From the NCBI GenBank assembly GCA_013821865.1, contig PNJM01000006.1, forward strand, positions 1-22,950: 22,950 nt of DNA, read 5' to 3'. Shown in pieces: positions 7,246-21,898 of the stretch. Numbering within the stretch: position 1 is the first letter of the stretch; every line of letters starts with the position of its first letter. The notes beneath the pieces are model-generated. The model was not told the origin of the DNA. It did no database searches and saw only the letters and a list, made by a program, of their open reading frames with translations. Origin of the DNA: Rhodocyclaceae bacterium (GTDB lineage Bacteria; Pseudomonadota; Gammaproteobacteria; Burkholderiales; Rhodocyclaceae). The translations under genes and the position numbers were made by a program.

Positions 7246-7410
7246 CATCAGGTCGTTCTTGCTTCGCCCCCAGAGATCCATAGGATTGCCGACCGAGCGT
7301 TTGAGAGCCGCCCTTGCCATCGAGGCGGTGACGGGTTGTTTGAACGAGATGAGTTGTGCGAACGTCTGGCCTGCCAGCCGGTACAGCCAGGTGCGGCGTC
7401 GTATGATCAT
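7231..7410 (-). CDS. Small basic protein of unknown function
   Basis: A 59-codon gene, product MIIRRRTWLYRLAGQTFAQL followed by a basic region ending in GRSKNDLMSYHR. An excellent AAGGAGG ribosome-binding site sits about six bases upstream of this ATG, better than nearly any other start in the window, and is the main reason to call it. The reading frame is open to an upstream ATG at 7521, but that has no ribosome-binding site. It overlaps the last 15 bases of fdhA on the opposite strand. There is no signal peptide or metal motif; positive charges are spread along the chain. It is not the FdsD subunit. I do not recognise a family. Confidence 0.5.
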   Translation of the reverse strand: MIIRRRTWLYRLAGQTFAQLISFKQPVTASMARAALKRSVGNPMDLWGRSKNDLMSYHR

Positions 7411-7672
7411 GCGGCCCTCCTTCCTAACCGGATATGGAAACTGTCGTTCGCCTTCTTGACGGGCGAGTAATTCGACTTTACTCCAATTCGAATCGGGCAA
7501 TCGCTTTAATTCCATTTCCAAATCAAACCGACTTTGTTGGCTTCGCCTCGCCGCAGCCAGCTGCCCGATCCGTTAAAAGACCCGTCATGCCAAGGACGGT
7601 TCGCAGCGTTTTTCTTTCCATAGGCGATAAGTTTTTTCTTTGACTTGAAAAAAACAAAAACCAGAACTGCAC
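7411..7672. other. AT-richer gap without a supported gene
   Basis: Upstream of the minus-strand small gene and of the candidate small RNA. The base composition falls well below that of the flanking genes, with A and T runs at 7631-7638 and 7648-7660. Short open frames exist on both strands, but none has a convincing ribosome-binding site or protein character. The A-rich stretch just before 7673 could act as an UP element. Confidence 0.5.
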
Positions 7673-7717
7673 TTGACATGCGTCAAGAATTTGAATAGTT
7701 TGTCTCGGCGGGATAAT
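7672..7717 (+). promoter_or_regulatory. Candidate Fnr/Dnr-controlled promoter of the small RNA
   Basis: CTTGACATGCGTCAAG at 7672-7687 has 6-bp inverted arms around four bases, matching the TTGAC-N4-GTCAA form of Crp/Fnr-family (Fnr, Dnr/NnrR) sites. GATAAT at 7712-7717 is a good -10, giving a start near 7723 and placing the box centre near -44, about three bases further out than the usual -41.5. An alternative is a plain sigma-70 promoter with TTGACA (7673-7678) as -35 and the weak TAGTTT (7696-7701) as -10, spacer 17. Confidence 0.45.
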
Positions 7718-7721
7718 TTCA

Positions 7722-7821
7722 GTAACTCATACATTTTCTGCCGGCCGCCAATGATGCCGGTCGGCAGAATGGGCAATAAGGCCCTACGGAGCGCAGCGGC
7801 GCTCCGTAGGGCTTTTTTTTT
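7722..7821 (+). ncRNA. Candidate small regulatory RNA, about 100 nt
   Basis: From the predicted start near 7722 the transcript would have a short single-stranded 5' end, then a 12-bp hairpin (7736-7747 with 7758-7769, one G-U pair, ten-base loop), a 12-base linker and then a 14-bp terminator hairpin with nine T residues. There is no plus-strand gene upstream for this terminator to serve: the nearest is fdhA, whose stop is over 500 bases away. No start codon with a ribosome-binding site lies inside. The layout is that of an independent sRNA such as the Fnr-controlled FnrS or AniS. The sequence matches no RNA family I recognise, and the call rests on structure and promoter position only. Confidence 0.5.
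7781..7821 (+). terminator. Very strong Rho-independent terminator
   Basis: GCCCTACGGAGCGC (7781-7794) pairs perfectly with GCGCTCCGTAGGGC (7799-7812) around a four-base loop AGCG, followed directly by nine T (7813-7821). The minus strand has no T run after the stem, so the signal is for the plus strand. Confidence 0.93.
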
Positions 7822-8145: not shown

Positions 8146-8170
8146 TCCTGGAAATCGGGTATTTCCAGGA
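8146..8170 (+). promoter_or_regulatory. Hairpin covering the integrase ribosome-binding site
   Basis: TCCTGGAAAT (8146-8155) pairs perfectly with ATTTCCAGGA (8161-8170) around CGGGT. The right arm contains most of the Shine-Dalgarno AGGAG (8167-8171), five bases from the ATG at 8177. The fold would hide the ribosome-binding site. Confidence 0.55.
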
Positions 8171-8176
8171 GCACTC

Positions 8177-8704
8177 ATGGCTAAAATCAAACTGACAAAA
8201 ATGGTTGTTGACGCTGCACAACCTCAATCCACCGACGTTGAACTACGCGATACCTTAGTGCCGGGCTTCCTGTGCAAAGTCACTCCGGCAGGCCGCAAGG
8301 TCTTCATGGTTCAGTATCGCACCAACGCCGGTGAACGCCGCAAACCCTCGCTCGGGCTGTTCGGCGAGTTGACTGTCGAGCAGGCCCGCTCGCTTGCGCA
8401 AGACTGGCTGGCCGAGGTTCGCCGCGGCGGTGATCCGGGTGGCGAGAAGGCGGAAGCGCGCAAGGCCCCGAGCGTCAAGGAACTGTGCACCCGATTCATG
8501 GAGGACTACTCCAAGACACGCAACAAGCCGAGCACCCAACGCTCATACCAGCATCAAATCGATCGCTCGATCATTCCTGCCTTCGGCAGCAAGAAAGTCT
8601 CTGAAGTCACGCGCATGGACGTGATTGCGCTGATGAAGCGCATGGAAAAATCGCCGATACAGGCCAACCGTGTGCTCGGCTGCATCCGCAAGATGTTCAT
8701 CTAA
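8177..8704 (+). pseudogene. P4-type tyrosine integrase, N-terminal fragment
   Basis: The 175 residues cover the N-terminal arm-binding domain (DUF4102-like, about 1-85, with TLVPGFLCKVTPAGRKVFMV) and the SAM-like core-binding domain (about 95-175, with KPSTQRSYQHQIDRSIIPAF and ANRVLGCIRKMF). The frame stops just where the catalytic domain should begin, so the R-H-x-x-R-Y residues are all missing; full-length relatives are about 400 residues. Start and ribosome-binding site are intact. The truncation point, near 8698, is probably a deletion or recombination joint, because no catalytic-domain sequence follows before phnP. It marks the left border of the phosphonate gene block. The product cannot recombine DNA, though it might still bind arm sites. 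Confidence 0.85.
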
Positions 8705-8767: not shown

Positions 8768-9550
8768 TTATTTCCCTCGGCGGCGGTTGATGTCAATCTC
8801 CGACACAACCTGTGAATCATGGGCAACAGTAATGCGAGGGGATAGCTCGCCGACATTTTTCAACCGCCAGGCATCCATATCGTGGCTGATGTGGGTCAAC
8901 CAGACTTTGGCCGGTGTGAGCGTTTCTGCTATCGCCAGGGCGATGGTCAGATCGTTATGGTTGCGCGGCGGATCGTTTTCGGGTGGTTGCGTGCAGTCCA
9001 ACGCCACCAATCCTGGCCGCCAGTCCTTTAGAAACTCCTCCGTCCGGGGAGGCAAACCAACGGTATCTGTCAGATAGGCGAAACGCTGGCCAATGGAATC
9101 TTCTATGGCATAGCCAAACGTTACCTTGGAATGAATCAGGGGTAGTGGCGTTAGCATTAGGTCGCCGACCGTAATCCGATCAAACTTGGAAAGCCGGTGG
9201 AATTCGAGAAGCCCATGATTTTTGTAGAGGTCAGCGCAACCTTCAGAATCCGGTGGCCCGTAGACAGGGATGCGAGCGCCGATTCCCCACCTCAGATGAA
9301 ACAGGCCCTGTACATGATCCGGATGAAAATGCGTCACTACGATTGCCGACAAACTACCCGGCGGAAAACGTTCGGTGAGATCAGTCAGGCCGGCATCGAT
9401 CAGTATGCGGGTGTCGCCCGCTTCCACTAACGCCGTACAGGGGCGGCGGCGGAAGGCCGCAACCGCCCGCGCCCGCATGCAGGCCGGACAATTGCAACCG
9501 TAGAGCGGCACACCACCCGCATCGCCGGTACCGAGAAACGTGACGCGCAT
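8768..9550 (-). CDS. phnP: Phosphoribosyl 1,2-cyclic phosphate phosphodiesterase
   Basis: Opens the 5-phosphoribosyl 1,2-cyclic phosphate released by C-P lyase to ribose 1,5-bisphosphate, the substrate of PhnN. A 260-residue metallo-beta-lactamase-fold protein with the metal motif HFHPDH (residues 74-79), later ligands in LTDTVG and LTHISHD, and the structural-zinc cysteines typical of PhnP rather than of other family members (Cys19, Cys21, Cys24 in GCNCPAC). The ATG at 9550 is chosen because MRVTFLGTGDAGGVPLYG is the known N-terminus and it lies one base past the phnN stop; the frame stays open for 65 more codons upstream inside phnN. It is the last gene of the operon, and no clear terminator follows it. 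Confidence 0.94.
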   Translation of the reverse strand: MRVTFLGTGDAGGVPLYGCNCPACMRARAVAAFRRRPCTALVEAGDTRILIDAGLTDLTERFPPGSLSAIVVTHFHPDHVQGLFHLRWGIGARIPVYGPPDSEGCADLYKNHGLLEFHRLSKFDRITVGDLMLTPLPLIHSKVTFGYAIEDSIGQRFAYLTDTVGLPPRTEEFLKDWRPGLVALDCTQPPENDPPRNHNDLTIALAIAETLTPAKVWLTHISHDMDAWRLKNVGELSPRITVAHDSQVVSEIDINRRRGK

Positions 9551-9551
9551 G

Positions 9552-10124
9552 TCAAGCAAACGCCCGTTCGGATGTGTCGGCAACCGACAGCAATTGCACC
9601 AGGCGCTCGCCTGCTGCGTGCAGTTCACCGTCATTCTGAATGATCTCCAAAGGCCCCTCTGGACGCATGAACTGCCTGGCGCGTGCAATCCGTTGAGATA
9701 TCTGATCCTCCGTTTCTCGGCCGCGGGCGCGCAATCTCGCGGCAAGAACTTCAGGCGAAACGGTGACCAGAACCGCAGTCAATGCCGGGTAGCGGCGTCT
9801 TGCTTCCGGCAGGTACTCGCGGGAGCCGTTCATCACCACGTTGCAGCCCTTGGCCAGCCAAAGGTTGATTTCCCGGCCGATGCCATAGCGCAAGCCGTGG
9901 CTTTCCCAATACATGGTGAAGAGGCCGGCAGCCAGGCGGGCGTCGAACTCGGTCTCGGTCAGGGCGACGTGGTTTTCCCCGTGGAGTTCCACCGGCCGCG
10001 TGATGTAGCGGTGCGCGAAGACCACGCCGGGGTCGCCCGCAAGGCGCTCGCGGCCGTAGCGCATCAGGCTGTCCTTGCCGCTGCCGGAGGGACCGATGAC
10101 GTAGAACAGCTTCCCCTCAGCCAT
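9552..10124 (-). CDS. phnN: Ribose 1,5-bisphosphate phosphokinase
   Basis: Phosphorylates ribose 1,5-bisphosphate with ATP to PRPP, returning the ribose of the C-P lyase intermediate to nucleotide metabolism. The 190-residue protein is of the usual length and has a guanylate-kinase-like P-loop GPSGSGKDS (residues 11-19), the RYITRP segment and a lid region RLRARGRE. Its start lies within the last eight bases of phnM, and its stop is one base before the phnP start, so translation is coupled on both sides. Confidence 0.94.
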   Translation of the reverse strand: MAEGKLFYVIGPSGSGKDSLMRYGRERLAGDPGVVFAHRYITRPVELHGENHVALTETEFDARLAAGLFTMYWESHGLRYGIGREINLWLAKGCNVVMNGSREYLPEARRRYPALTAVLVTVSPEVLAARLRARGRETEDQISQRIARARQFMRPEGPLEIIQNDGELHAAGERLVQLLSVADTSERAFA

Positions 10125-11271
10125 GGTCGAACCGTGCCTCGAACACCGGCTTGCCCGCCGAGAAAACGCCGCTCGCCTGGGCCAGCCCGTTGATGTGCGC
10201 GACGGCGACCAGATCGGCGCGCTTGCCTACGGCAATCTCACCGCGATCCGACAGACCCGCCGCCTTGGCCGGGTTGGCGCTGACCAGCCGTACTGCGTCG
10301 GCCAGGCCGATGCCCGCCAGTTCCGGCAGGCGGAAGACCGCCACGATCAGCGTCGCCGGGTGATAGTCGGCACACAGGCAGTCGGCGACGCCCGCGAGCA
10401 CGGCATCCAGCGCCCGAACGGCGCCAGACTGGCTTTTGCCGCGCAGGATGTTGGGCGCGCCGAACACGGTGCTCATACCGCGTTCGCGTGCGGCACGCGC
10501 GGTTTCCAGATTGATAGGGAACTCCGATATCCCGACACCCAGACCGTGCAGGGTCTCCACCTTTTCCGGCGTATCGTCGTCATGGGAGGATATGCGGATA
10601 CCCTTGTTCTTTGCTGCGTCGATCAGTAACCGGATACGGGCCATGGCGCCTTCGGCCTGGGCGAGCTTGTTCTCCACCAGGCTGTCCAGTTCGGCTTCCG
10701 ACTTCTTGTAGGTGCGGGCCAGATAATCGCGGAAGGCGGCGATGTCCTTGAACTGCCCCTGTCCGGGCGAGTGATCCATCACCGAAAGCAGGTGCATCTC
10801 GTCACCCGCCATCAGCTCAAGCAGGATTTCTGGCGCCGTCGGATCGGTCACTTCGTAGCGGCAGTGCACCCGGTTGTCGACCAAGCCGTGCGGGTTCCAG
10901 GCGTGGACCGCGCGCGCCACGGAGGCAGCGAAGGCGTTGTTGCGTACGCCGAGTTCCTCGTTGGCAAAGGATAGCGCGTGAAACACCGTGGTGACGCCGG
11001 CGGCCGCGTTGCGCTTGTCGGCCTGGGCGCAGGCGAAGTCGAGCGGGAAATGCACGTTGGGGCGCGGTTCGACTTCCTTCTCCAGCGCGTCGCAGTGCAG
11101 GTCGATCATGCCGGGAATCAGCGTCTTGCCGCGAAGGTCGAAGGTTTTCGCGCCGTTGCCCGATTTTGGGTTGATGGCCGCGATAACGCCGTCCTCGATC
11201 AGCACGGCGCCGTCATCGACGACGGCGTCGGGAAGCACCACACGGGCGCCGGTGAGATAAAGCTTGTTCAT
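10117..11271 (-). CDS. phnM: alpha-D-ribose 1-methylphosphonate 5-triphosphate diphosphatase
   Basis: Amidohydrolase-superfamily enzyme that removes pyrophosphate from the ribose-phosphonate triphosphate made by the PhnGHI(L) system, giving the 5-phosphate substrate of PhnJ. The 384-residue protein fits PhnM. Metal-site features include DLHCDA (His59, Asp61), KxVEPRP just after, the central SSHDDDTPE and the late CADYHPATL. The ATG at 11271 is used because MNKLYLTGARVVLPD is the family start; it has AAGGAG upstream and overlaps the phnL stop in ATGA. The open frame continues upstream only as antisense-like sequence inside phnL. Confidence 0.94.
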   Translation of the reverse strand: MNKLYLTGARVVLPDAVVDDGAVLIEDGVIAAINPKSGNGAKTFDLRGKTLIPGMIDLHCDALEKEVEPRPNVHFPLDFACAQADKRNAAAGVTTVFHALSFANEELGVRNNAFAASVARAVHAWNPHGLVDNRVHCRYEVTDPTAPEILLELMAGDEMHLLSVMDHSPGQGQFKDIAAFRDYLARTYKKSEAELDSLVENKLAQAEGAMARIRLLIDAAKNKGIRISSHDDDTPEKVETLHGLGVGISEFPINLETARAARERGMSTVFGAPNILRGKSQSGAVRALDAVLAGVADCLCADYHPATLIVAVFRLPELAGIGLADAVRLVSANPAKAAGLSDRGEIAVGKRADLVAVAHINGLAQASGVFSAGKPVFEARFDHG

Positions 11272-11990
11272 GCAATCTCCTTGAGGAGTTCCTCGACGGC
11301 GGGCGGCGGAGCCAGTTCGACGACCTGATCGGCCAGCCGGCGGGTGGTTTCGGGGTGGTGGAAAATGGCGAGCATGGCCGTGCCCTCGGACTTGAGTCCT
11401 TCGATCAGGCCGATCACGCATTCGGCGGTGGCCGGATCAAGGCTGGCGGTCGGCTCGTCGAGCAGCAGGAGGCGCGGGCGGGCGATGAAGCCGCGGGCCA
11501 GGTTCACCCGCTGACGTTCGCCGCCGGAAAACGTCGCCGGCGAAACGCTCCACAGACGCTCCGGCAGCTTCATGGCGGACAGCAGTTCGGCGGCACTCTG
11601 TTTTGCCTCCTCGCGTGGAACGCCAAGGCCCAACAGTGGTTGCGCCACGACATCGAGCGTCGTCTGGCGCGGCAGGCAATGCAGGAACTGCGTGACGAAG
11701 CCGATTTCGCGGCGCCGCAACTCCAGTATCTGGTGCTCGCTGGCCAGGGCCAGATCCAGCTCGTGGCCTGCCACATCGCGATAAAGAATGCGGCCGGCGC
11801 TCGGCAGGTAGGTGCGGTAGATGCCCTTCAGCACCGAGGACTTGCCGGCGCCGGTGGGGCCGATCAAGGCCGTGAGTTCGCCGGTGCGCACCGTGAAGCT
11901 GACGTTGTGGGAGGACGGGATCAGCTTGTTCTGCTCGTGGAGCTGGAAATGCTTGCCGTAGCCATCGACCTGGAGAATGGGTGGAATCAT
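11268..11990 (-). CDS. phnL: C-P lyase complex ABC-type ATPase PhnL
   Basis: A 240-residue ATPase of the ABC class that associates with the C-P lyase core rather than with a membrane transporter; in the E. coli complex it stacks on PhnK. The Walker A motif is GPTGAGKSS (residues 44-52), the signature is FSGGERQRVNLAR, and Walker B is LLLLDEPTASLD followed by the switch histidine in FHHPE. It starts ten bases after the phnK stop and its stop overlaps phnM. PhnL is also needed for the PhnGHI-catalysed nucleosidyl transfer in vitro. Confidence 0.94.
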   Translation of the reverse strand: MIPPILQVDGYGKHFQLHEQNKLIPSSHNVSFTVRTGELTALIGPTGAGKSSVLKGIYRTYLPSAGRILYRDVAGHELDLALASEHQILELRRREIGFVTQFLHCLPRQTTLDVVAQPLLGLGVPREEAKQSAAELLSAMKLPERLWSVSPATFSGGERQRVNLARGFIARPRLLLLDEPTASLDPATAECVIGLIEGLKSEGTAMLAIFHHPETTRRLADQVVELAPPPAVEELLKEIA

Positions 11991-12000
11991 GATGTGTTCC

Positions 12001-12831
12001 TCACAGGGCCGACGCCACCAGCCGCTGGGTATAGGCGTGCTGAGGGTCTTCCAGGATTTGATCGGTGAGCCCCGTCTCGATGACGCGGCCGTATTTCATG
12101 ACGATGGCCCGGCCGGCCAGCAGCCGGATCACGCCCAGGTCGTGGGTGACGACGACCATGGCGGTTTTTAGCTCCTGCTGGATTTCCAGGATCAGGTCGA
12201 GAATGCGGGCCTGCACCGAGAGATCGAGACCGGTGGTCACCTCGTCCAGGAACAGCAGAGGCGGTCGGGTGGCGAGCGCCTTGGCGATCTGCACGCGTTG
12301 CTGCATGCCGCCGGAGAAGTTCTTCGGTAGATCGTCGACGCGAGAGAGCAGCACCTCGGTGCGTGCCAGCAGGGCCTTGGCCCGTTCGCGAATGGCGCCG
12401 TAGTCCATTAGGTCGCTCATCAGCAACCGTTCCGCGATGTTGCCGCCGGCACTGATGTTGAAGTTCAGGCCCAGATTAGGATTCTGATAGACCATCCCGA
12501 AGCGGTGATTGCGCAGCCAGCGCTGCTGGGCGGCATTCAACGAAAACAGATCATGTTGCCGGTCGCTGTCGTAGAAAATCGCTTCGCCGCCGGAGGGTGC
12601 CTGATCGAAATAGAGGGCCTTCACCACCGTCGACTTGCCACTGCCCGACTCGCCCATGACGCCCAGAATCTCCCCCTCGAACAGGTCGAAGGAAACATCA
12701 TGGATGGCGACGACGCTGCCACAATGCGGACATAGGTTGGTGTCGACCTCCGGACCGGTGGATTCGAGGCATTGCGGGCAGCCCGGGCCGTAGATTTTGC
12801 TCAAGCCTCGGACCTCAAGAATCTTGTTCAT
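12001..12831 (-). CDS. phnK: C-P lyase complex ABC-type ATPase PhnK, with zinc-ribbon-like insertion
   Basis: The ABC-type ATPase that binds the PhnJ face of the C-P lyase core. Walker A is GESGSGKST (residues 60-68), the signature is FSGGMQQRVQIAK, Walker B LLFLDEVTTGLD, and the late VVTHDLGVIRLLAGRAIVMK matches PhnK. The length is 276 residues against about 252 in E. coli. The extra is an insertion after KIYGPG carrying Cys18, Cys21, Cys34 and Cys37 (CPQC, then twelve residues, then CPHC), a zinc-ribbon or rubredoxin-knuckle pattern. The ATG at 12831 overlaps the phnJ stop in ATGA and precedes MNKILEVRGLSKIYG. The insertion's role is unknown; it could dock to PhnJ or act as a structural zinc site. 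Confidence 0.92.
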   Translation of the reverse strand: MNKILEVRGLSKIYGPGCPQCLESTGPEVDTNLCPHCGSVVAIHDVSFDLFEGEILGVMGESGSGKSTVVKALYFDQAPSGGEAIFYDSDRQHDLFSLNAAQQRWLRNHRFGMVYQNPNLGLNFNISAGGNIAERLLMSDLMDYGAIRERAKALLARTEVLLSRVDDLPKNFSGGMQQRVQIAKALATRPPLLFLDEVTTGLDLSVQARILDLILEIQQELKTAMVVVTHDLGVIRLLAGRAIVMKYGRVIETGLTDQILEDPQHAYTQRLVASAL

Positions 12832-13721
12832 GCCAGTTCTCCCTGAGGATGTTCGGTCCGGAGCAATTGCTCGTCGCACCAATCGCTGTCCGAGCATTGC
12901 CAGGTCTTGCTGCCCGAATCGGCTACGAACTCATCGAGGAAGGAATCCGTGCAGCCGCAGCGGGCGCAGGCGCGGCGCCGCCCCGCTGCGTCGCGGAAAT
13001 CCTCGACGCGAAATGGCACGTCGCTGAAGGCCAGCGGTTCCGCCCTGGTGTGCGGCGGCACGGCGTAGATTTTCTTCTCGCGCCCGGCGCCGAACAGAAC
13101 CAGCGCCGCCGAATCGTTGAGCTTGGGCACATCCCAGCGCGGGATCGGCGAAGGATCGATGACGTAATGGCCGTTGATGCGCGTCGGATAGCGATGCGAG
13201 ATCGTGATCTCGTCGAACTTGACGATGTCCTCGTACAGCTTCACCAGCAGGCGCGAGTAGTCCGCCTCGCCATGCATGGTCTTGCGCTTGTCCTCGGAAG
13301 GCTCGACCACCACCAGCGGATCGGGGTATGGCACCTGCAGGACGATGATCTGGCTGGCCGTGAGCGCCAGTTCCGGGATGCGGTGGCGCGACTGGACGAG
13401 GGTGCACTCCGCCGTTTTCGTGGTCGTGGAAACACCGGGGCAGGTCATCTCGATGAACTGGCGCAGGTTGACGGCGTTGACCGAGTCGTCCGAACCCTGG
13501 TCGATGACCTTCACCACCTCGTTGGGGCCGATCAGCGACAGGGTGAGTTGCAGGCCGCCGGTGCCGAAGCCGCGCCCCATGGGCATTTCACGCGAGGCGT
13601 AGGGCACCTGGTAGCCCGGGATCGCGATCGCCTTGAGGACGGCCCGGCGTACTTCCTTCTTGGCGTACTCGTCGAGGAAACCGAAGTTGTAGGCATTCGT
13701 GGTGTGGGTCATGGCGTTCAT
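12828..13721 (-). CDS. phnJ: alpha-D-ribose 1-methylphosphonate 5-phosphate C-P lyase (radical SAM)
   Basis: The enzyme that breaks the carbon-phosphorus bond using S-adenosylmethionine and a [4Fe-4S] cluster, releasing an alkane (methane from methylphosphonate) and the cyclic ribose phosphate. The 297-residue protein starts in PhnJ style (YNFGFLDEYAKKEVRRA). Cysteines 252, 255, 276 and 282 (CARC and CSDSDWC) reproduce the spacing of E. coli Cys241/244/266/272 within one residue: three cluster ligands and the thiyl-radical cysteine. The ATG at 13721 overlaps the phnI stop (ATGA); an in-frame ATG at 13712 is the alternative. The much longer open frame upstream lies inside phnI and is not real. 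Confidence 0.95.
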   Translation of the reverse strand: MNAMTHTTNAYNFGFLDEYAKKEVRRAVLKAIAIPGYQVPYASREMPMGRGFGTGGLQLTLSLIGPNEVVKVIDQGSDDSVNAVNLRQFIEMTCPGVSTTTKTAECTLVQSRHRIPELALTASQIIVLQVPYPDPLVVVEPSEDKRKTMHGEADYSRLLVKLYEDIVKFDEITISHRYPTRINGHYVIDPSPIPRWDVPKLNDSAALVLFGAGREKKIYAVPPHTRAEPLAFSDVPFRVEDFRDAAGRRRACARCGCTDSFLDEFVADSGSKTWQCSDSDWCDEQLLRTEHPQGELA

Positions 13722-14836
13722 GCGGGTTCCCCTGACTTCTGCTGCGTCGTCCGCAGACGGTCCAGGTCGGATTGAAAGGTGACGTAGTGGGGCATCTTGT
13801 AGTGCGAGGCGAAACCCATGGAGTCGACGCCATCGACGTGGAGCAGGACAAACTCGGGGTCTTCGGAGGGGTTGGCCGGACCATCCTTCATGCCCTTCTG
13901 CAGCGCGCGGTCGAGAATCGCCATGGAGATGGCCTTGACTTCGTTGTGGCCGAAACACGCGCCGTAGCCGACGGTGAACACGGGTTTTCCGCCGCCTTCG
14001 GCTTCGTACATGGCCACCACCTCGCACTCGGTGATCAGCACCTCGCCTGCTTCGGTGAATTCGCCGGTCACCGGATGCGGCAGGGTTACCGGCAGGTAGC
14101 CGACCCGCAGTTCCGCCACCGTCGGATGCACATCGCCATAACCACGCATGTTGGAGTAGGCGATCCCGAGGAGCGATCCGGTTTCTGCCCGCGCCATGGT
14201 GGCCAGCGCGGCCGAACGCGGCACGGGAAACACCAGTGGCTCACGGGTGATATCGAACGCCGCCTGCTGGCGGGTGGCGCTGACCGGTGGCAACAGGTCT
14301 TCGGCACGCAGGGCGTCGAGCACCTTCGGAAAGCTGTCCGGCAGTTGTGCGTCAGGGCAGGTTTCCAGCCACTCCCGAGCTATGGCCCGGAAGGCCTCCG
14401 GCGACTCGTCCATCAGATCGAGGCGGAGCAGGCGCAGAGCGTAATCGGGGGTCGGGCCGAGCATCTGGCCGCCGGGAATTTCCTTGAAAGCGGACGAGAT
14501 GCGGCGAATCAGGCGCATCCGCGAGGTGTCGAGTGGCGGCGTCGCGGAAAGGCGCGGCCGGGTGGAGCGCCAGGCACGCAGCGCGAAAGCGGCTTCCAAC
14601 GTGTCCCCAAGACTTTGCTTCACGGCGAGTGCGGCGAATTTGGGGTGATACACCCCGCCCTCGGAAATGACGCGATCAACCAGATGGCGCAGTTGATGAA
14701 GAATGGCATCGATCTTGAGGGGTTCGGGCGGTTCGGTGCAGGTATTGCCCAGCCCCTCCTCGGTGCGCAGAAACTCGGTGACGGCAGCGGCTCCGGCAAT
14801 GGCGCGCCCGCCGCCCTTGATGGCAACGTAACTCAT
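13718..14836 (-). CDS. phnI: alpha-D-ribose 1-methylphosphonate 5-triphosphate synthase subunit PhnI
   Basis: Nucleosidase subunit that, with PhnG, PhnH and PhnL, displaces adenine from ATP by the phosphonate, committing the substrate to the pathway. The 372-residue product is close to the 354 of E. coli and carries the PhnI hallmarks MSYVAIKGGGRAI at the start, PLDTSRMRLIRRISSAFKEI in the middle, and ECEVVAMYEAEGGGKPVFTVGYGACFGHNE, followed by LLHVDGVDSMGFASHYKMPHY. The ATG at 14836 lies one base past the phnH stop. An open extension to 14953 is inside phnH and is rejected. Confidence 0.95.
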   Translation of the reverse strand: MSYVAIKGGGRAIAGAAAVTEFLRTEEGLGNTCTEPPEPLKIDAILHQLRHLVDRVISEGGVYHPKFAALAVKQSLGDTLEAAFALRAWRSTRPRLSATPPLDTSRMRLIRRISSAFKEIPGGQMLGPTPDYALRLLRLDLMDESPEAFRAIAREWLETCPDAQLPDSFPKVLDALRAEDLLPPVSATRQQAAFDITREPLVFPVPRSAALATMARAETGSLLGIAYSNMRGYGDVHPTVAELRVGYLPVTLPHPVTGEFTEAGEVLITECEVVAMYEAEGGGKPVFTVGYGACFGHNEVKAISMAILDRALQKGMKDGPANPSEDPEFVLLHVDGVDSMGFASHYKMPHYVTFQSDLDRLRTTQQKSGEPA

Positions 14837-14837
14837 C

Positions 14838-15404
14838 TCAGAAAGCCTCCCCGGAAATACGGATGCGCGTTGTACGCGCCAGCGCGACGATGCGTGTCGC
14901 ATCGGAGAGCAGCAGGTCGACCCCCAGGGGAAAGCCGCCGACCCAATCGGCACGGCGCGTCAGCCAGTCGGGATGCAGGCCCGTTAGACGCAGTGCTCGC
15001 CGGCCATCGACGCCAGGGCCGGCAAGATCCAGAGACAAGGCCCCGTGGCCCACGCTGTCGACCTCGATGAGGATGGTGGAACCGAATTCCGGAGATTCCA
15101 GCGAGCCCAGTGGCGGCTGGAAATCGGGGGCACGATGCCCGTTGGCCACGACGTAACGGGCACTCTCGGTTGCTCCCGGTTTGGCTTGAAGCAAAGGCCA
15201 GTCCGCTTCGGCGATTTGCCCGTGGGGGTCGGCCAGCGTCATTTCCCCGTCCATCAAGGTGGCCAGCACGGTGCGTTGCGCGGAAGCGCCGTCAACGCAG
15301 GCGCTCAGATCACGTATGTCGCCGGGACGCGAGAAGGCTTCGACCAGTTCGCGGAATACGCGCTGCTGGACGTCTGCCTGCCAGATGGATTCAGCCTTCA
15401 TCAT
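14838..15404 (-). CDS. phnH: C-P lyase core subunit PhnH
   Basis: Core subunit of the PhnGHIJ complex with a PLP-transferase-like fold but no known independent activity. The 188-residue length is close to the usual 190-195. Recognised from VFRELVEAFSRPGDI near the start, the central RYVVANG, and the C-terminal GGFPLGVDLLLSD followed by ALARTTRI. The start overlaps the end of phnG by 14 bases; two tandem ATG codons (15404 and 15401) are possible. Confidence 0.93.
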   Translation of the reverse strand: MMKAESIWQADVQQRVFRELVEAFSRPGDIRDLSACVDGASAQRTVLATLMDGEMTLADPHGQIAEADWPLLQAKPGATESARYVVANGHRAPDFQPPLGSLESPEFGSTILIEVDSVGHGALSLDLAGPGVDGRRALRLTGLHPDWLTRRADWVGGFPLGVDLLLSDATRIVALARTTRIRISGEAF

Positions 15405-15858
15405 CGTCGTCTCCTGCGTTGTTCAGCATCGCGAAATCCACCCGCGTTGCGGCGAGCATGGCGCGACGGCGGCGGTCTTCGCCGGTGCGACTGAGCGCCC
15501 CGGACTCAATGTGTGCCGACACCCGTTCCCAGCCAGGAAATCGGGCGGCGAGGACGGCGTCGAGTATTGCCAGCGAACGGGCAAGTTCGGCATCGTCGGC
15601 CATCACCTGGGCGCCGCCTGCGGCCCGACGGCCGTCGGACAGAGCGAGTTCGATGCTGCACGAGGACAGCGGAAATTCGCCCAGGTAATAGGGTTCGTGA
15701 AAAGCCCCATCGGTCAGGGTCAGGAGGCCGAGGCCCGCCTGCGGGAGACTCTTGAGTTTCACGTCGCAGTCGGCCGTCAACTGATCGGCCAGCGCGTTCA
15801 ATACGGTTGCCGGATGTGCGGTCAGCGCCCGAATCCAGTTTTTTCTTTCCATGTTCAT
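15391..15858 (-). CDS. phnG: C-P lyase core subunit PhnG
   Basis: Core subunit of PhnGHIJ; with PhnI it forms the centre of the complex and is required for nucleosidyl transfer. The 155 residues compare with 150 in E. coli. Diagnostic segments are RKNWIRALTAHP near the start, FHEPYYLGEFPLSSCSIEL and GGAQVMADDAELARSLAILDA. The tail is unusually acidic (GDDDDEG). The ATG at 15858 shares one base with the phnE2 stop (TGATG) and has GGGAGATTGGG upstream. The second ATG, two codons in, is an alternative. Confidence 0.93.
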   Translation of the reverse strand: MNMERKNWIRALTAHPATVLNALADQLTADCDVKLKSLPQAGLGLLTLTDGAFHEPYYLGEFPLSSCSIELALSDGRRAAGGAQVMADDAELARSLAILDAVLAARFPGWERVSAHIESGALSRTGEDRRRRAMLAATRVDFAMLNNAGDDDDEG

Positions 15859-16667
15859 CAACCCAATCTCCCTCGTAACCACGCCGAGGCGTAGTCGATA
15901 ATCAAAATGGTGGCCAGGATGACCAGAATCAGCGCGGCGGACTGGCCATAGTCGAACAGGCGCAAGGTGTCGTGGAGCGCCAGACCGATGCCGCCGGCCC
16001 CGACCAGACCTAGCACCGAGGCCATGCGCACGTTGCGATCCAGAATGTAGAGGACGTAGCCCAAGGCCTCGCGCATGATCGACGGCCAGCCGGCATACAT
16101 GACCATTTGCGGAAAATTGGCGCCGGTGGATGCCACGCCCTCGCAAACACCCTTGTCCACCCGCTCCAGACTTTCGGCGAAGAACTTGCCTAGAAAACCG
16201 GCCGTATGCACGCCGAGCGCGAGCGCGCCGGGCAACGGTCCCAGCCCGAGCGCGGCAACGAAGATCAGGGCCAGCAGCAAATCCGGCATGGCGCGCATGA
16301 AATTGAGGGTTTCCCGGGCGATGCGGTAGGTCACGGCATTGGGTGCGAAGTTGCGCGCGGCCAGCGGCGCCAGGAAGAACGCCACCAGCAGCGCGAACAC
16401 CGTGCCCCAGAGCGCGGTGGCCAGGGTGATCCCCATCAGTTCCAGATATCTAGACAAGTTGGTGAAATCGGGGTTTCCGTAACGGCCGAAATATTCGGCC
16501 ATGTCCTCGACGCCATACGCCAAAGCCTCGAAGGAGATATCCAGATCCAACACGATCAGCCAGAGAATGGCTAGCGTCGCCGCCATCCAGACCGGCGCCG
16601 GATTGCGCGGCTTCGGCGGGAATGGCTCCGCTTGCCGACGAGCCGATTTCAGATCATGGACGTTCAT
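15858..16667 (-). CDS. phnE2: Phosphonate ABC transporter permease (second PhnE)
   Basis: Inner-membrane permease of the phosphonate importer PhnCDE. The 269-residue chain has hydrophobic segments around residues 27-45, 75-98 and 125-160 and near the C-terminus (ALILVILATILIIDYASAWL), and the PhnE coupling region FFAESLERVDKGVCEGVASTGAN followed by LGLVGAGGIG. It is a tandem homologue of the upstream permease; the two probably form a heterodimer. Its start overlaps the phnE1 stop by four bases. A charged, proline-rich N-terminal extension (KSARRQAEPFPPKPRNP) precedes the first membrane segment. Confidence 0.92.
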   Translation of the reverse strand: MNVHDLKSARRQAEPFPPKPRNPAPVWMAATLAILWLIVLDLDISFEALAYGVEDMAEYFGRYGNPDFTNLSRYLELMGITLATALWGTVFALLVAFFLAPLAARNFAPNAVTYRIARETLNFMRAMPDLLLALIFVAALGLGPLPGALALGVHTAGFLGKFFAESLERVDKGVCEGVASTGANFPQMVMYAGWPSIMREALGYVLYILDRNVRMASVLGLVGAGGIGLALHDTLRLFDYGQSAALILVILATILIIDYASAWLRGRLG

Positions 16668-17479
16668 GCCCGTCTCCCGTGGATGATGCGGCTGCGCAAG
16701 CGGTCTGACGCACGATCAAGGGCGGTCACCACCAGATAGATGGATAGCGCGATCAAGAGCAAGCGCTCGTATTGGAAGAGGCGCATGGACATCACCAGGT
16801 CGTAACCGATACCGCCGGCGCCGACCAGGCCGAGGATGGCGGCCGCACGCAGGTTGTGGTCGAGGATGTACATCACCGTGCCGACGAAGTCGGGCAAAGC
16901 CTGGGGCAGCATGGCGAACAGGCGCACTTGCAGCCAGCCGGCGCCGTGCGCCCGCACTCCCTCCACCGCCTTGTGGTCGACCACCTCGATGGACTCGGCG
17001 AAGAACTTGCCCATGAATCCCACCGTCACGAAGGCCAGCGCCATGACGCCGGGCAAGGGGCCGAGGCCGACCGCCGATACGAAGACCAGCGCCCAGACCA
17101 GTTCCGGGAGCGCCCGCATCAGGCTCAACAGATCGCGCGTAACCCGATAGACCACCGGATGCGGCGTCGCGTTGTTGGCGGCCAGTATGCCCAAGGGCAG
17201 GCTCACGACAACGGCGATGGCGGTGCCCAGCACCGTCATTTCGATGGTTTCGAGCATCTTCGCCAGAAGTTGCGGCACATACTCCCAGTCAGGCGTGACG
17301 AACATCTGCCCGGCGAAGGCGACCATCCTGCCGATGGAGCCGATCAGGCGGACGAAGTCCACCTCCACGATCGGCGCCGTCAGCCAGAGACCGGCGAGCA
17401 GTGCCAGCACGCCGCCGACCAGCGGCAGCGGCGGCCAGCCGTTAGGCGTAGGCCAGCGCCATGTCGAGGCTGTTGTCAT
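16664..17479 (-). CDS. phnE1: Phosphonate ABC transporter permease (first PhnE)
   Basis: First of two permease genes of the phosphonate importer. The 271 residues include membrane segments near residues 18-40, 82-100, 120-150 and 240-260, and the conserved FMGKFFAESIEVVDHKAVEGV loop with LGLVGAGGIGYDLVMSMRLFQY. The start codon lies 38 bases inside phnC, an unusually long overlap for this operon. No later in-frame ATG would keep the first membrane segment, so the overlap is accepted. Confidence 0.91.
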   Translation of the reverse strand: MTTASTWRWPTPNGWPPLPLVGGVLALLAGLWLTAPIVEVDFVRLIGSIGRMVAFAGQMFVTPDWEYVPQLLAKMLETIEMTVLGTAIAVVVSLPLGILAANNATPHPVVYRVTRDLLSLMRALPELVWALVFVSAVGLGPLPGVMALAFVTVGFMGKFFAESIEVVDHKAVEGVRAHGAGWLQVRLFAMLPQALPDFVGTVMYILDHNLRAAAILGLVGAGGIGYDLVMSMRLFQYERLLLIALSIYLVVTALDRASDRLRSRIIHGRRA

Positions 17480-18221
17480 CTTCGATGCCTTCCCGTTGGT
17501 AGATGGTGTGCAGTACGGAGTGCGTCATTTGTTCGGGGCTGCCGTCGAAAACGATCTTCCCGCTATTCATGCCAATGATGCGATCGGCGAAACGCCGCGC
17601 CAGTTCCACCTGATGCAGATTGACCACGACCGTAATGCCGTCGCGGTCGCAGATTTCGCGCAGTAGGGTCATGATCTCCTCGCTCGATACCGGATCGAGG
17701 CTGGCGACCGGTTCGTCGGCCAGGATGACCTTGGGCCGTTGGGCCAGAGCCCGCGCGATGCCGACACGTTGCTGTTGCCCGCCAGACAGTTTGTCGGCGC
17801 GGCTCCAGGCCTTGTCGGTCAGGGCTACACGGGACAGAGCCTCCCGGGCAATGCCCATGTCCTCCTGGCGGAAGAGATAGAACACGCTGCCCACCCAGGA
17901 ACGGTGCGCCAAGCGTCCCGTCAGGACGTTGGTGACGACGGAAAGCCGGTCCACCAGATTGAACTGCTGGAACACCATGGCCACCTTGGAGCGGATGTGG
18001 CGCAGCTTGTGCCCGTCAACGGCTTCACCTCCGATGCGTACTTCGCCGGTGGTCGGGGTTTCCAGGCCGTTTACCAGGCGCAGCAGGGTGGACTTGCCGG
18101 CGCCGCTCGGGCCCAGCACGACGGTGAAACTGCCGGATTGAATCTCCGTATCGATACCCTTCAGGGCCTCGAAGCCGTTCGGGAAGCGTTTCGTTACGGA
18201 TTGAATGGAAATCGCGGACAT
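17442..18221 (-). CDS. phnC: Phosphonate ABC transporter ATP-binding protein
   Basis: ATPase powering the PhnCDE importer. The 259-residue protein has Walker A GPSGAGKST (residues 37-45), the Q-loop MVFQQFNLVDRLSVVTNVLTG typical of PhnC, the signature LSGGQQQRVGIARAL, and Walker B VILADEPVASLDP. An AAGGAG ribosome-binding site precedes the ATG at 18221. It follows phnD after 67 bases that hold a 9-bp hairpin. Confidence 0.95.
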   Translation of the reverse strand: MSAISIQSVTKRFPNGFEALKGIDTEIQSGSFTVVLGPSGAGKSTLLRLVNGLETPTTGEVRIGGEAVDGHKLRHIRSKVAMVFQQFNLVDRLSVVTNVLTGRLAHRSWVGSVFYLFRQEDMGIAREALSRVALTDKAWSRADKLSGGQQQRVGIARALAQRPKVILADEPVASLDPVSSEEIMTLLREICDRDGITVVVNLHQVELARRFADRIIGMNSGKIVFDGSPEQMTHSVLHTIYQREGIEDDNSLDMALAYA

Positions 18222-18239
18222 GACTTTTCTCCTTTGTCC

Positions 18240-18270
18240 GGGAAGGCAAACCGACGCGATCTGCCTTCCC
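18240..18270 (-). promoter_or_regulatory. Intercistronic hairpin between phnD and phnC
   Basis: GGGAAGGCA (18240-18248) and TGCCTTCCC (18262-18270) form a perfect 9-bp stem with a 13-base loop, just after the phnD stop and before the phnC ribosome-binding site. There is no T run. Such stems after binding-protein genes often protect the upstream mRNA and raise binding-protein levels relative to the rest of the operon. Confidence 0.55.
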
Positions 18271-18288
18271 CCATGCGTTTACTTGCGC

Positions 18289-19161
18289 TTACTTGAGCAG
18301 GTCTTTTTTCTGCAGTCCCAGGTCCTTCACCATGTCGCGGATCATCTGGTAGTCCTTCGGGCCGACCGCTACGTAGTGGGTCAGGTTGCCGTAGCCGGTG
18401 ACTTTGATGTCCTTGTGAGCAGTCAGGATGGCGTCCTGAATCTTCGCCTTCATGTCAGCGGGCAGGTCGCTGCGATAAACCAGGGGCGATCCGGGCAAGG
18501 GGTCGGATTCCTTGACGATACAGTTGGTCTGCTTGGTGATGAGGCCCTTGGCCAGCATCTTCTCGTAGGTGATGTCGTTGTCGGCGGCGGCATCGACGGT
18601 CTTGTTCTTGACCGCCAGTTCGGCCGCATCATGTGAGCCGGCATAGGTGAACTTGCCGAAGAACTCCTGCGGCATCATTCCTGTTTCTTTCTTGACCATG
18701 TAGGTTGGCATCAGGCCACCCGAGGTCGAGGCTGGATCGACGAAGGCCACGCTCTTACCCTTGAGATCCTTGATCGACTTGATGCCGGAGTCGCAGGGGG
18801 CGATGATCAGACTCTTGTAGGTATGCGAGCTGCTGCCTTCGCGGATGCCGACGGCGAATGCTTCCGCGCCGGCCTCCTGCTCGGCCAGGTAATAGGAAAG
18901 CGGTCCGAACCAGGCGATGTCGACACGCTTCTTCTTCATCGCCTCGATGACACCAGCGTAGTCGGTGGCGGTAAACACTTTTACCTTGGCGCCCAGTTTT
19001 TTCTCAAGTTGGACACGCATCGGCTCGAATTTCTGGATCATCTCCTCGTTGTTCTCGGCCGGAATCAGGCCCATGACAATGTCGCGCGCCTGAGCGGATG
19101 CGGCGGTTAATGACAAGGCCAGCGCCAGCGCGCTTGCCGAAAGAGTGGGTTTCAAATACAT
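18289..19161 (-). CDS. phnD: Phosphonate ABC transporter periplasmic binding protein
   Basis: Captures phosphonates in the periplasm and delivers them to PhnE1/E2. The 290-residue precursor has a Sec signal peptide (MYLKPTLSASALALALSLTA, then ASAQA) with likely cleavage after Ala25. The mature protein starts RDIVMGLIPAENNEEM and carries the PhnD signature regions KVFTATDYAGVIEAMKKKRV, IAWFGPLSYYLA and FVDPASTSGGLMPTYMV. The start at 19161 is chosen over an upstream ATG because it gives a proper signal peptide and has GGGAG upstream. It begins 35 bases after phnF with no visible promoter of its own. Confidence 0.95.
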   Translation of the reverse strand: MYLKPTLSASALALALSLTAASAQARDIVMGLIPAENNEEMIQKFEPMRVQLEKKLGAKVKVFTATDYAGVIEAMKKKRVDIAWFGPLSYYLAEQEAGAEAFAVGIREGSSSHTYKSLIIAPCDSGIKSIKDLKGKSVAFVDPASTSGGLMPTYMVKKETGMMPQEFFGKFTYAGSHDAAELAVKNKTVDAAADNDITYEKMLAKGLITKQTNCIVKESDPLPGSPLVYRSDLPADMKAKIQDAILTAHKDIKVTGYGNLTHYVAVGPKDYQMIRDMVKDLGLQKKDLLK

Positions 19162-19196
19162 TGCGATTGCTCCCGTAAGGTTGATCAATAGGACGG

Positions 19197-19925
19197 TCAA
19201 GGATTGATGCGCAGTTGGATCCGGTCGGCGCGAAACCGGGTCAGGGCGTATTCGAGCGGGGTACCATCCCGTTCGCCTACATTGACGCTTTTGACCCGTA
19301 GCACGGGCTGGTTCTGGGGCATACCCAGCAGCGAGGCATCATCTCCTTGCGGGAGCGCCGCGCTGACCAGGCTTTCGACCCGCCGCAGTTTCAACCCGTG
19401 GCGAACACCGAGATGTTCGTGCAGCGATCCCCCGTGGTATTCCGCCAGCAGGTACGGAAAAATCCGCTTCGGCAGGAAATGGGAAATCACGCAAACTGGC
19501 CGATCATCGGCCAGGCGCAGGGATTCAACCCAGATGACCGGGTCGTTCTCAGCCAAGCGCAGGCGGGTGGCAACGCCACCACGTGCCGGGATCACCAGTT
19601 TGCGCAGAATGCGGTTGCTGGCGGTCTTGCCGAGCGATTCGAAGGTTTCGGTGAAGCGCGTGCCGCTACCCAGCACGTAGTCGGCGGGGGCATCGAGCAC
19701 GAAAGTGCCCTTGCCATGGCGACGCTCCAGCAGGCCGGCGGCGATCAGGTCCTCGACTGCGCGGCGAACGGTGTGGCGATTGACACCGAAGCGCTCCGCT
19801 AGCTCGTTTTCCGAGGGTAGGCACTCTCTTGGCGACAGGAACGAAGCGATTTCTTCCTTGAGCAGTTTGGCAATCTGGCTATAGATCGCTTCGCCGCCAT
19901 TCCGTTGCAGAGCTACAAGACTCAT
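19197..19925 (-). CDS. phnF: GntR-family (HutC/PhnF-type) transcriptional regulator of phosphonate use
   Basis: First gene of the operon; a likely repressor of the operon and of itself. The 242 residues comprise an N-terminal winged helix-turn-helix (about 12-76, with LPSENELAERFGVNRHTVRRA and GLLERRHGKGTFV) and a C-terminal UTRA ligand-binding domain (about 95-240, with VIWVESLRLADDRPVCVISHFLP and the closing LEYALTRFRADRIQLRI). UTRA domains of this group sense small metabolites; the ligand here cannot be read from sequence. An inverted repeat lies directly upstream of the start codon, where an autoregulatory operator would be. Confidence 0.93.
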   Translation of the reverse strand: MSLVALQRNGGEAIYSQIAKLLKEEIASFLSPRECLPSENELAERFGVNRHTVRRAVEDLIAAGLLERRHGKGTFVLDAPADYVLGSGTRFTETFESLGKTASNRILRKLVIPARGGVATRLRLAENDPVIWVESLRLADDRPVCVISHFLPKRIFPYLLAEYHGGSLHEHLGVRHGLKLRRVESLVSAALPQGDDASLLGMPQNQPVLRVKSVNVGERDGTPLEYALTRFRADRIQLRINP

Positions 19926-20198: not shown

Positions 20199-20212
20199 CA
20201 GAGCGGGCCCCG
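20199..20212 (+). repeat. IS left terminal inverted repeat
   Basis: 14 bases that are the exact reverse complement of 21538-21551. The ends do not start with the TG typical of many IS3 elements, so the true tip could lie a few bases in or out. Confidence 0.7.
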
Positions 20213-20260
20213 TTTGTTTGGACAGAATTTCCGGGAGGATAAGTGGAGCCTTGCGGCGTA

Positions 20261-20325
20261 GGGTTATCCACGGGGCCGCCGCCCGCCCCTTTGAGGCGGG
20301 AGGCGAGCGGCCCGGTGGGTAACCC
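20261..20325. repeat. Large stem-loop inside the IS, downstream of orfB
   Basis: The 19 bases at 20261-20279 pair with 20307-20325 with two mismatches, and CCCGCC (20282-20287) pairs with GGCGGG (20295-20300) inside it. The fold lies just past the orfB stop. There is no T run. It may block transcription through the IS or be part of the transposase recognition end. Confidence 0.6.
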
Positions 20326-20332
20326 GGATACG

Positions 20333-21163
20333 TCATGCCGCGATCCTCTCCTGCGGCAGGCCGCCGAAGTAGATCGCATCCGGCGTCTTGCCGTCAAGTG
20401 TGCGATGCGGCCGGCGGGTGTTGTAGAAGGCCAGATACGCGCCCAGGCCGGCCTGGGCGGCCGACACCGAGTCGTAGGCCTTCAGATACACCTCCTCGTA
20501 CTTCACGCTCTTCCAGAGGCGCTCGACGAACACGTTGTCGCGCCAGCAGCCTTTGCCGTCCATGCTGATGGCGATGCCGTGGGCCTTGAGCAGATCGGTG
20601 AACTCCAGGCTGGTGAATTGGCTGCCCTGATCGGTGTTGAAGATCTCCGGCACGCCATATTTCGCGATGGCCCCCCGCACCGCGTCCAGACAGAAGTCGG
20701 TGGTGAGCGTGTTCGACAGGCGCCAGGCGAGCACGCGGCGCGAATGCCAGTCCATCACCGCCACCAGATAGACGAAGCCGCGGCGCATCGGGATGTAGGT
20801 GATGTCGGTCGCCCAGACCTGGTTGGGCCGCTCGATGGCGAGATTCCTGAGCAGGTACGGGTAGACCGGGTGGGCGGCATGGCGCCGGCTGGTGTTCGGT
20901 TTCCGGTACAGCGCCTCGATGCCCATCTTCTTCATCAGGGTGCCGACGTGCTTGCGCCCGATCTCGTGGCCTTCCCGCCGCAGCAGGTCGCGCAGCATGC
21001 GCGCGCCGGCGAAGGGGGACTCCAAATGCAGTTCGTCGATCCGGCGCATGAGCGCCAGGTCTTCCGGCGAGCTCGGCTGCGGCGCGTAGTAGGCGGTGGA
21101 ACGTGCCAGTTCGAGAATCCGGCATTGCCGGACGACCGGCAGGGCGTGGGTGCGGTCGATCAT
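20333..21163 (-). CDS. IS3-family transposase, catalytic OrfB
   Basis: The DDE-type integrase-core subunit. From the ATG at 21163 it has 276 residues with an HTH_21-like N-terminal region (LHLESPFAGARMLRDLLRRE) and the catalytic acids Asp120 (WATDITYI), Asp178 (FNTDQGSQF) and Glu214 (VFVERLWKSVKYEE); 35 residues separate the second and third, as expected. In the family it is usually made as an OrfA-OrfB fusion by -1 frameshifting. Here the orfA stop and this ATG overlap in ATGA, and the OrfB frame is also open far upstream through orfA, so both coupling and frameshifting are possible. No long A run is seen at the junction. Confidence 0.92.
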   Translation of the reverse strand: MIDRTHALPVVRQCRILELARSTAYYAPQPSSPEDLALMRRIDELHLESPFAGARMLRDLLRREGHEIGRKHVGTLMKKMGIEALYRKPNTSRRHAAHPVYPYLLRNLAIERPNQVWATDITYIPMRRGFVYLVAVMDWHSRRVLAWRLSNTLTTDFCLDAVRGAIAKYGVPEIFNTDQGSQFTSLEFTDLLKAHGIAISMDGKGCWRDNVFVERLWKSVKYEEVYLKAYDSVSAAQAGLGAYLAFYNTRRPHRTLDGKTPDAIYFGGLPQERIAA

Positions 21164-21462
21164 CTTCTTGCGCTCAGCAGGCCCGCCTTGGTGAGCGCGC
21201 TTTCTAAAAAATCGTTCTCCAGTGCGAGCTGCCCGATCTTGGCGTGCAGCACCTTTAAATCGACCGGCGGAGTCTCCGGACTGCTGCCGCCAAAAACCTG
21301 CGCCGCCCGTTCCAGCAACTGCGTCTTCCATTCGGCAATCTGGTTCGGATGCACGTCGTGCTGCTGCGCCAGTTCCGCCAGGGTCTTGTCGCCTTTTACC
21401 GCCGCGATCGCCACTTGGGCCTTGAACGCCGGTGAGTGGTTCCGTCTCTTCCTTCTTGCCAT
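21160..21462 (-). CDS. IS3-family transposase, OrfA (DNA-binding)
   Basis: A 100-residue protein with a helix-turn-helix (FKAQVAIAAVKGDKTLAELA and HDVHPNQIAEWKTQLL) followed by a short leucine-rich coiled coil (LHAKIGQLALENDFLESAL), the standard OrfA layout. The ATG at 21462 gives the usual MARRKRRNHSP start; the open frame upstream to 21516 runs toward the terminal repeat. Its stop overlaps the orfB start. Confidence 0.9.
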   Translation of the reverse strand: MARRKRRNHSPAFKAQVAIAAVKGDKTLAELAQQHDVHPNQIAEWKTQLLERAAQVFGGSSPETPPVDLKVLHAKIGQLALENDFLESALTKAGLLSARR

Positions 21463-21550
21463 GCTCTTGCTCCATTTCAGGGCCGCGACGCGGCCGTTGG
21501 GGGGCAAGGCTATCACTTATCCAACTGTCCGAATTTCCGGGGCCCGCTCT

Positions 21551-21898
21551 GAAAACCCGACTATTGTTGATGCCGTATTACGGCTTTGTGCCAGTGCGGT
21601 TGTTGCGGCGCCAATCCGTTCATTCGGTGTGCTTTCATCGTTAATTCTGGCGCGGCAGCTTACAGCGCAACTCAGGCAGCAGCGATGGCGGATCGAAAAG
21701 CTGGAATCGAAACTCGCCTTTATGCGGAAGATTTCCGAGGCGAAAACGATTGTCATGCATACGAAAGGCATCTCTGAAGATGAGGCGTATGCGGTTATGC
21801 GGGAACAGGCGATGTCCAAGCGGGTTCCGATCGAGGAGATTGCGACGGCGATCATGAATGCCAACGAGATCCTCGCCATGGGCAAGAAGAGCGGCTAA
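21551..21898 (+). pseudogene. AmiR-like ANTAR antitermination regulator, 5' end removed by the IS
   Basis: The remaining 115 codons start at the IS border with ENPTIVDAVLRLCASAVVAA, the late part of the pseudo-receiver domain as in Pseudomonas AmiR, followed by a coiled-coil linker (LRQQRWRIEKLESKLAFMRK) and a complete ANTAR RNA-binding domain (EAKTIVMHTKGISEDEAYAV, MREQAMSKRVPIEEIATAI). About 70-80 N-terminal residues are missing, and they are not on the other side of the IS. Such proteins bind paired hairpins in leader RNAs to prevent termination, often for amidase, nitrile or nitrate genes. The frame is open back into the IS, but no sensible start is seen, so it is probably dead. Confidence 0.82.

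Follow-up and report, generated by a model that had tools for sequence, protein, structure and literature searches.

The RNA targets of ANTAR-domain proteins are described as two hairpins, P1 and P2, whose hexaloops carry A at position 1 and G at position 4, with P2 overlapping a terminator (PMC3369931, PMC3369936). For the amiE operon of Pseudomonas aeruginosa, early transcription termination has been reported on the basis of 3'-end mapping (PMC8297930), and AmiL, the 100-nucleotide leader RNA of this amidase operon, has been reported to act in trans (PMC9045362). An ANTAR leader also precedes the Bradyrhizobium denitrification gene nosR, where NasT is reported to act, which provides a precedent for such leaders on genes used anaerobically (PMC6759348). 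Moreover, a free RNA with an ANTAR-binding dual hairpin, as reported for EutX/Rli55, can sequester an ANTAR protein (PMC5821096). We recognized no description of an Fnr-controlled ANTAR leader, or of an orphan AmiR leader, in the open-licence literature.

Anaerobic sRNAs of the FnrS/AniS type combine an Fnr-type box with a short, terminated transcript. A sequence-only reading of the 22,950-nucleotide stretch of Rhodocyclaceae DNA analyzed here (hereafter the window) had assigned an element between genes for formate dehydrogenase and an integrase to this type. We reach a different primary identity, because the homologues of the element are leaders linked to AmiR and to amidase/urea genes. The element is very probably the antitermination leader of an AmiR-controlled amide/urea-utilization operon, which has been orphaned at this locus. 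This reading draws on the structure of the element, its homology, the synteny in its relatives and the presence of both ends of the operon in the window.

As compared by description, the element shares with the AmiR-responsive amiE leader of P. aeruginosa a P1 hairpin with an A1/G4 hexaloop and a P2 hairpin overlapping an intrinsic terminator (PMC3369936), and with AmiL a leader RNA of about 100 nucleotides (PMC9045362). It differs from the amiE leader in having no operon, in carrying A at position 4 of the P2 loop and in having an Fnr-type box upstream. The leaders that respond to NasR/NasT and EutV share the dual hexaloop hairpins overlapping a terminator, but serve other operons through proteins with other input domains, and G at position 4 is stated for their P2. 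Unlike EutX/Rli55, the window contains no riboswitch match in Rfam.

Architecture of the element

The coordinates of all features are given in Table 1. The 12-bp hairpin and the perfect 14-bp stem with its nine T residues are present as originally described. The segment between them, however, had been counted as a linker of 12 bases. It measures 11 bases (7770-7780) and takes part in a second hexaloop hairpin, P2, which is incompatible with the complete terminator, since the 3' strand of P2 is also the base of the terminator 5' arm (7781-7784). Thus, the element has the organization of an antitermination switch.

Table 1. Features of the leader locus and of the DNA that follows it in the window.
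Feature	Coordinates	Strand	Evidence or remarks
Fnr/Dnr-type palindrome TTGACATGCGTCAA	7673..7686	.	likewise exact before the leaders in G019 and G464
GATAAT, candidate -10	7712..7717	+	read directly
AmiR/ANTAR-type antitermination leader, whole element	7722..7820	+	covariance models R1 and R2 (both built with the window), hold-out R3
Hairpin P1, 12 bp	7736..7769	+	hexaloop AATGAT 7750-7755 (A1, G4), closed by C7749-G7756
Antiterminator hairpin P2, GGGC(AATAAG)GCCC	7771..7784	+	hexaloop 7775-7780: A1, but A at position 4
Intrinsic terminator	7781..7821	+	14-bp stem 7781-7794/7799-7812, 4-base loop, nine T 7813-7821
Tyrosine integrase fragment (N-terminal and central parts)	8177..8704	+	Pfam Arm-DNA-bind_3, Phage_int_SAM_3, Phage_int_M
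Phosphonate (C-P lyase) cluster	8768..19925	-	Pfam PhnJ, PhnI, PhnH, Phosphonate-bd over cut-offs
IS element	20199..21551	-	transposase ORFs 20333-21475 and 21160-21516; 27-nt terminal inverted repeats, 81% complementary
amiR 3' remnant	21551..21898	+	115 codons and stop; end of AmiR_N, whole ANTAR; 5' part missing

The folding energy of the element is -58.6 kcal/mol, versus -31.6 +/- 3.3 kcal/mol for 200 shuffled sequences (z -8.1). Stepwise folding predicts that P2 forms once the transcript reaches 7784, before the 3' arm of the terminator exists, whereas the full-length RNA favors the terminator (-54.0 kcal/mol) over a combination of P2 and a shortened terminator (-48.6 kcal/mol). The region 7000-8800 holds one strong plus-strand terminator site (17 pairs, with G-T allowed), which is this terminator. 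Terminator-like sites in the same region number two versus 2.0 in shuffles, such that the strength of this terminator is unusual and the number of sites is not. An RNA of about 100 nucleotides, as first proposed, is the expected default product predicted from the leader and its terminator.

Loop sequences were compared in an alignment (A4) of 39 rows drawn from 50 leaders, from which near-duplicates (L150, L139, L154, L123, L104, L111) and weaker leaders (L140, L100, L133, L141, L137) were omitted; L144, L148 and L090, a duplicate of G019, fell outside these 50. The C-G pair closing the P1 loop is invariant (39/39), A occupies position 1 in 37/39, and position 4 is divided between G (27) and A (12). 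The P2 loop has A at position 1 in 36/39, with A (30), G (8) or T (1) at position 4. The P1 loop of the window therefore conforms to the published hexaloop motif at A1 and G4, whereas its P2 loop conforms at A1 and departs from G4, a departure common to most of the aligned leaders. The prevalence of A rather than the published G at this position suggests that recognition of the second hairpin is relaxed. In addition, a 13-mer published for eut leaders, AGCAANGRRGCUY, resembles the window segment GGCAAUAAGGCCC (PMC3369931).

Base pairing in P1 and the terminator is supported by a covariation value of 0.479 versus 0.171 after shuffling, with slid controls at 0.177 or below; just 68% of P1 cells pair in the 39-row alignment, the outer stem poorly. 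For P1 and P2 together the value is 0.303 versus 0.131, with P2 itself barely varying, and the count of pair types for these two hairpins is no better than in shuffles, 91 of 500 of which reach it.

Homologous leaders head amidase and urea operons

When 199 related genomes were searched at the nucleotide level, one convincing relative emerged, G019, and the remaining BLAST matches outside this genome and the genome of the window (G000) were short. When the window copy and both G019 copies of the element are aligned, seven pairs are changed on both sides, versus a shuffled mean of 2.7. A covariance model built from these three sequences (R1) and applied to 395 family genomes added a further one, G464 (E 8e-20). 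Matches to R1 at or below 34 bits (G262, G460, G111, G204 and others) were dropped, and the four that were viewed (L050-L053) looked like unrelated terminators. A short pattern run over 297 family genomes gave four places in three genomes, of which the fourth, in G261, was judged by eye to be a chance match. Antisense matches of R1 through R3 on leaders reflect the terminator palindrome and were left uncounted.

In G019, two tandem leaders (L082 4657-4857), each with P1, P2 and terminator, precede a single operon and form a double attenuator. The window sequence just past the terminator, 7822-7840 (GCTGCGCCGCAAG), resembles the stretch that follows the second G019 copy (GCTGTCGCACCGCAAG), which would fit the collapse of a former tandem.

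In both G019 and G464 the element shortly precedes the gene of an ABC substrate-binding protein of urea/amide type, which in G464 scores over the cut-off of the UrtA model, and the contig of the leader also encodes an ANTAR domain, about 11 kb further downstream. The gene run includes genes for AmiR, an aliphatic amidase, a UrtA-like protein and a binding protein labeled AmiC-like from its position and its fold family. It is this urea/amide transport context that suggests antitermination by an ANTAR protein, and the linkage of amiE, amiC-like and amiR genes is shared with the amidase operon of P. aeruginosa.

The association was examined in 80 named amidase loci fetched with the G464 amidase as query. 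A model built from 39 leader sequences, including that of the window (R2), finds a leader before amiE/urtA in 44 of these loci (plus strand, E <=5.4e-7), and in all of them except L140 the leader lies no more than 306 bases upstream of the amiE/urtA match (43/44). An amiR gene is present in 41/44 loci with the leader versus 7/36 without it (tblastn, E <=1e-8). The three loci with only the leader end before the place where amiR is expected. Among the seven with only amiR, five are on contigs that start at most 182 bases from urtA or amiE; the remaining two, scored as leaderless, are L163, without any leader match, and L100, whose leader match is weak. Over the family, R2 gives matches in 16/395 genomes at E 1e-9 or better and in 54/395 at E 0.001.

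The window contributed to both R1 and R2. A hold-out model (R3), derived from 35 amidase-type leaders and excluding the window, G019 and G464, scores the window at 64.0 bits (7723-7820, E 3.1e-17 over 104 kb), G464 at 64.9 bits and the two G019 copies at 49.8 and 48.9 bits. Within its own genome the window leader (E 8.3e-16) is the sole match below E 0.1 among the 150 of 1431 first-look candidates that were scored. R3 also matches a plasmid record of Paraburkholderia aromaticivorans (E 3.3e-20), itself absent from the model although its congener L097 was included, 34 bases before an annotated 'aliphatic amidase'. On this plasmid the amidase gene is followed by genes for CbbQ, VWA and substrate-binding proteins and then, four genes on, for an 'ANTAR domain-containing protein'. 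None of the 40 plasmids listed of 763 provided a P. aeruginosa amiE positive control.

Other arrangements of these leaders were also seen. In L085 and L086 (genus g6), two leaders are about 5.3-5.5 kb apart within one gene region; one leader of L086 precedes a UrtA-like gene, and in L085 AmiC/AmiR-like genes are divergent from a leader. Opposite the amidase leader, a weaker second leader-like match occurs in L241 (7636-7733, minus strand) and in L097 (9646-9743, minus strand). That of L241 lies upstream of a minus-strand cytosine permease gene, perhaps as part of a divergent switch pair.

The Rfam search that had been proposed for the element returned no match at gathering score in the window, and none was obtained for five leader-bearing loci tested. 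Sub-threshold matches of 7600-7900 (ncS54, Phe leader and others) reach at best 21.7 bits versus a gathering score of 55, and those of a Burkholderia leader (BcKCsr2 and others) fall far under gathering scores; all were rejected.

A Crp/Fnr-type box precedes the leader

The Fnr-type box, cTTGACATGCGTCAAg, is present and exact, with its core centered at 7679.5, and is also exact in the two closest relatives that carry the element, where TTGACACAGATCAA precedes the first G019 copy and TTGACAGCAATCAA the G464 leader. Shuffling the 160 bases upstream produced an exact TTGAY-N4-RTCAA 14 times in 20000 trials, and of 5000 stretches of 160 bases drawn at random from the loci examined, 0.16% contain one. 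Among 48 leaders (G019 copy b, L090, L137, L140 and L141 being omitted from this count), three have an exact box at most 150 bases upstream, namely the window, G019 copy a and G464, and the other 45 have none, one of them showing a single mismatch. The three copies are all from Rhodocyclaceae and related, hence non-independent, with both half-sites kept and most spacer bases differing.

The hexamer GATAAT does start 24 bases past the 16-base box. The box centers 32.5 bases before it, near -44.5, in keeping with the original caution that the center falls near -44 rather than at -41.5. The left half of the box doubles as a -35-like TTGACA hexamer, and in G464 and G019 the box likewise overlaps TTGACA, 16-17 bases from the best -10. 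Binding of a regulator at such a position could repress. The best -35 partner for GATAAT, with spacings of 15-19 bases allowed, is TTGAAT (4/6, spacing 15), and a sigma-70 scan of 7000-8800 found 0 promoter sites versus 0.7 in shuffles, which leaves GATAAT as a candidate element of a putative promoter.

Fnr is encoded in the genome of the window (above the NCBIfam cut-off). Given a box that is exact in three Rhodocyclaceae copies and in 0/45 others, Crp/Fnr control of the leader promoter is plausible, and given the equivocal position of the box we accept it as such without a sign. The exact box and the encoded regulator stand in favor of the original proposal in this respect.

Both ends of an operon flank presumably acquired DNA

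The formate dehydrogenase ORF ends at 7245, which leaves the plus strand gene-free for 427 bases up to the box and for 476 bases up to the presumed RNA start, rather than the more than 500 bases first stated. Directly downstream of the leader there is no amidase/urt operon, and an integrase fragment without its catalytic part follows instead after about 355 bases; the element is therefore classed as an orphan homologue and not as a working leader. The relatives that have the element carry it before genes other than those beside it in the window, and so offer no case of its conservation together with these flanking genes.

The far end of the interval carries the 3' remnant of an amiR gene, which matches PF03861 (E 1.3e-14) and PF21332 (E 6.7e-9), contains its ANTAR domain at 21695-21853, and is 66% identical to the AmiR of G464 and 76% to that of G019. 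The remnant begins at the very position where the right inverted repeat of the IS element ends. Leader and remnant are on the same strand, 13.7 kb apart, and flank the integrase fragment, the phosphonate cluster and the IS element. The ORFs of the relatives' operons match this interval solely via ABC ATPases. Beside the left end of the IS element, a short minus-strand ORF (20082-20336) resembles the C-terminal end of a tyrosine recombinase, with a sub-cut-off Phage_integrase match (20.6 versus 27.1 bits).

We propose that in the relatives transcription begins upstream, that P1 is made first and P2 next, and that RNA polymerase would by default stop at the terminator. AmiR released by amide would be expected to bind both hairpins through their hexaloops, such that the terminator 5' base is kept by P2 and the operon is read. 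At the present locus, acquired DNA comprising the integrase fragment, the phosphonate genes and the IS element may have replaced the operon body and left both of its ends, which is the simplest story the sequence offers. With the operon body replaced and amiR cut, the leader should always terminate. Its most likely product now would be a terminated leader RNA of about 100 nucleotides that has no cis target.

The genome of the window is 82% complete and consists of 548 contigs, so an intact operon elsewhere, or a misassembly, is possible. No amidase (AmiE) match was found in the 82% that is available, and AmiR_N occurs nowhere in it beyond the window and in none of the other genomes of the genus that were searched. 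The genome has 16 Peripla_BP_5 matches, one of them strong (contig C36), which we interpret as corresponding to a similarly scoring copy on another G464 contig, outside the leader gene run.

Alternative explanations

The element could be an AmiR leader exactly as described above and yet be silent, with leader and amiR tail as decaying debris. We consider this a serious possibility, though a doubtful one. The operon body is missing, amiR is truncated, no promoter passes the sigma-70 scan, and the arrangement of leader, acquired block and amiR remnant occurs in one genome only. Against decay, the box, the loops and both stems are intact, and the terminator is perfect over 14 bp; these intact parts fit a recent loss equally well.

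Less can be said for a free-standing, Fnr/Dnr-controlled sRNA of the FnrS/AniS type that pairs in trans with respiratory or C1 mRNAs, which we regard as unlikely. The element does resemble such sRNA genes in its box and in its short, predicted terminated transcript: the unit is isolated and ends in a terminator, all three Rhodocyclaceae copies examined have an exact box, Fnr is encoded, and a trans-acting role has been reported for AmiL of P. aeruginosa (PMC9045362). Its conserved parts, however, are ANTAR-type hexaloops, its homologues head operons and do not stand alone, and no relation to these sRNAs emerges from Rfam at gathering score. The proposed conservation in related genomes holds for the box and stems in G019 and G464, but no strong leader match occurs in the 15 other genomes of the genus (10 first-look candidates scored per genome), in which the one weak match is in G012 (E 1.2e-4).

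By analogy with EutX/Rli55, the orphan leader might instead now serve as an Fnr/Anr-controlled decoy sRNA whose hexaloops soak up other ANTAR proteins, which this genome encodes on contigs C2 and C27. We hold this to be quite improbable.

We consider a contig chimera that joins unrelated pieces to be very unlikely. In its favor, the assembly is fragmented, and none of the other genus genomes searched has AmiR_N, a strong leader match or PhnJ (1/16 genomes, the one studied here). Against it, the foreign block is bracketed by the two ends of a single operon, which share the same strand, and the break in amiR coincides exactly with the end of the IS inverted repeat. Finally, capture of the leader by the downstream integrase gene, which is on the same strand with no clear plus-strand gene between, is hardly credible for an integrase that lacks its catalytic part and a leader whose cognate AmiR is broken.

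Implications

Leaders of this kind precede amiE or urtA in 44/80 loci, yet no Rfam family matches at gathering score in the window or in the five loci tested. The data suggest that the distribution of AmiR-linked amidase leaders extends over Burkholderiales, Rhodocyclaceae and some Alphaproteobacteria, and that the switch is joined to a Crp/Fnr-type box in one small clade. If the decoy reading were true, oxygen status would be linked to nitrogen antitermination. Regardless, a tempting call of a new sRNA gives way here to what is very probably an evolutionary case, that of a regulatory leader outliving its genes.
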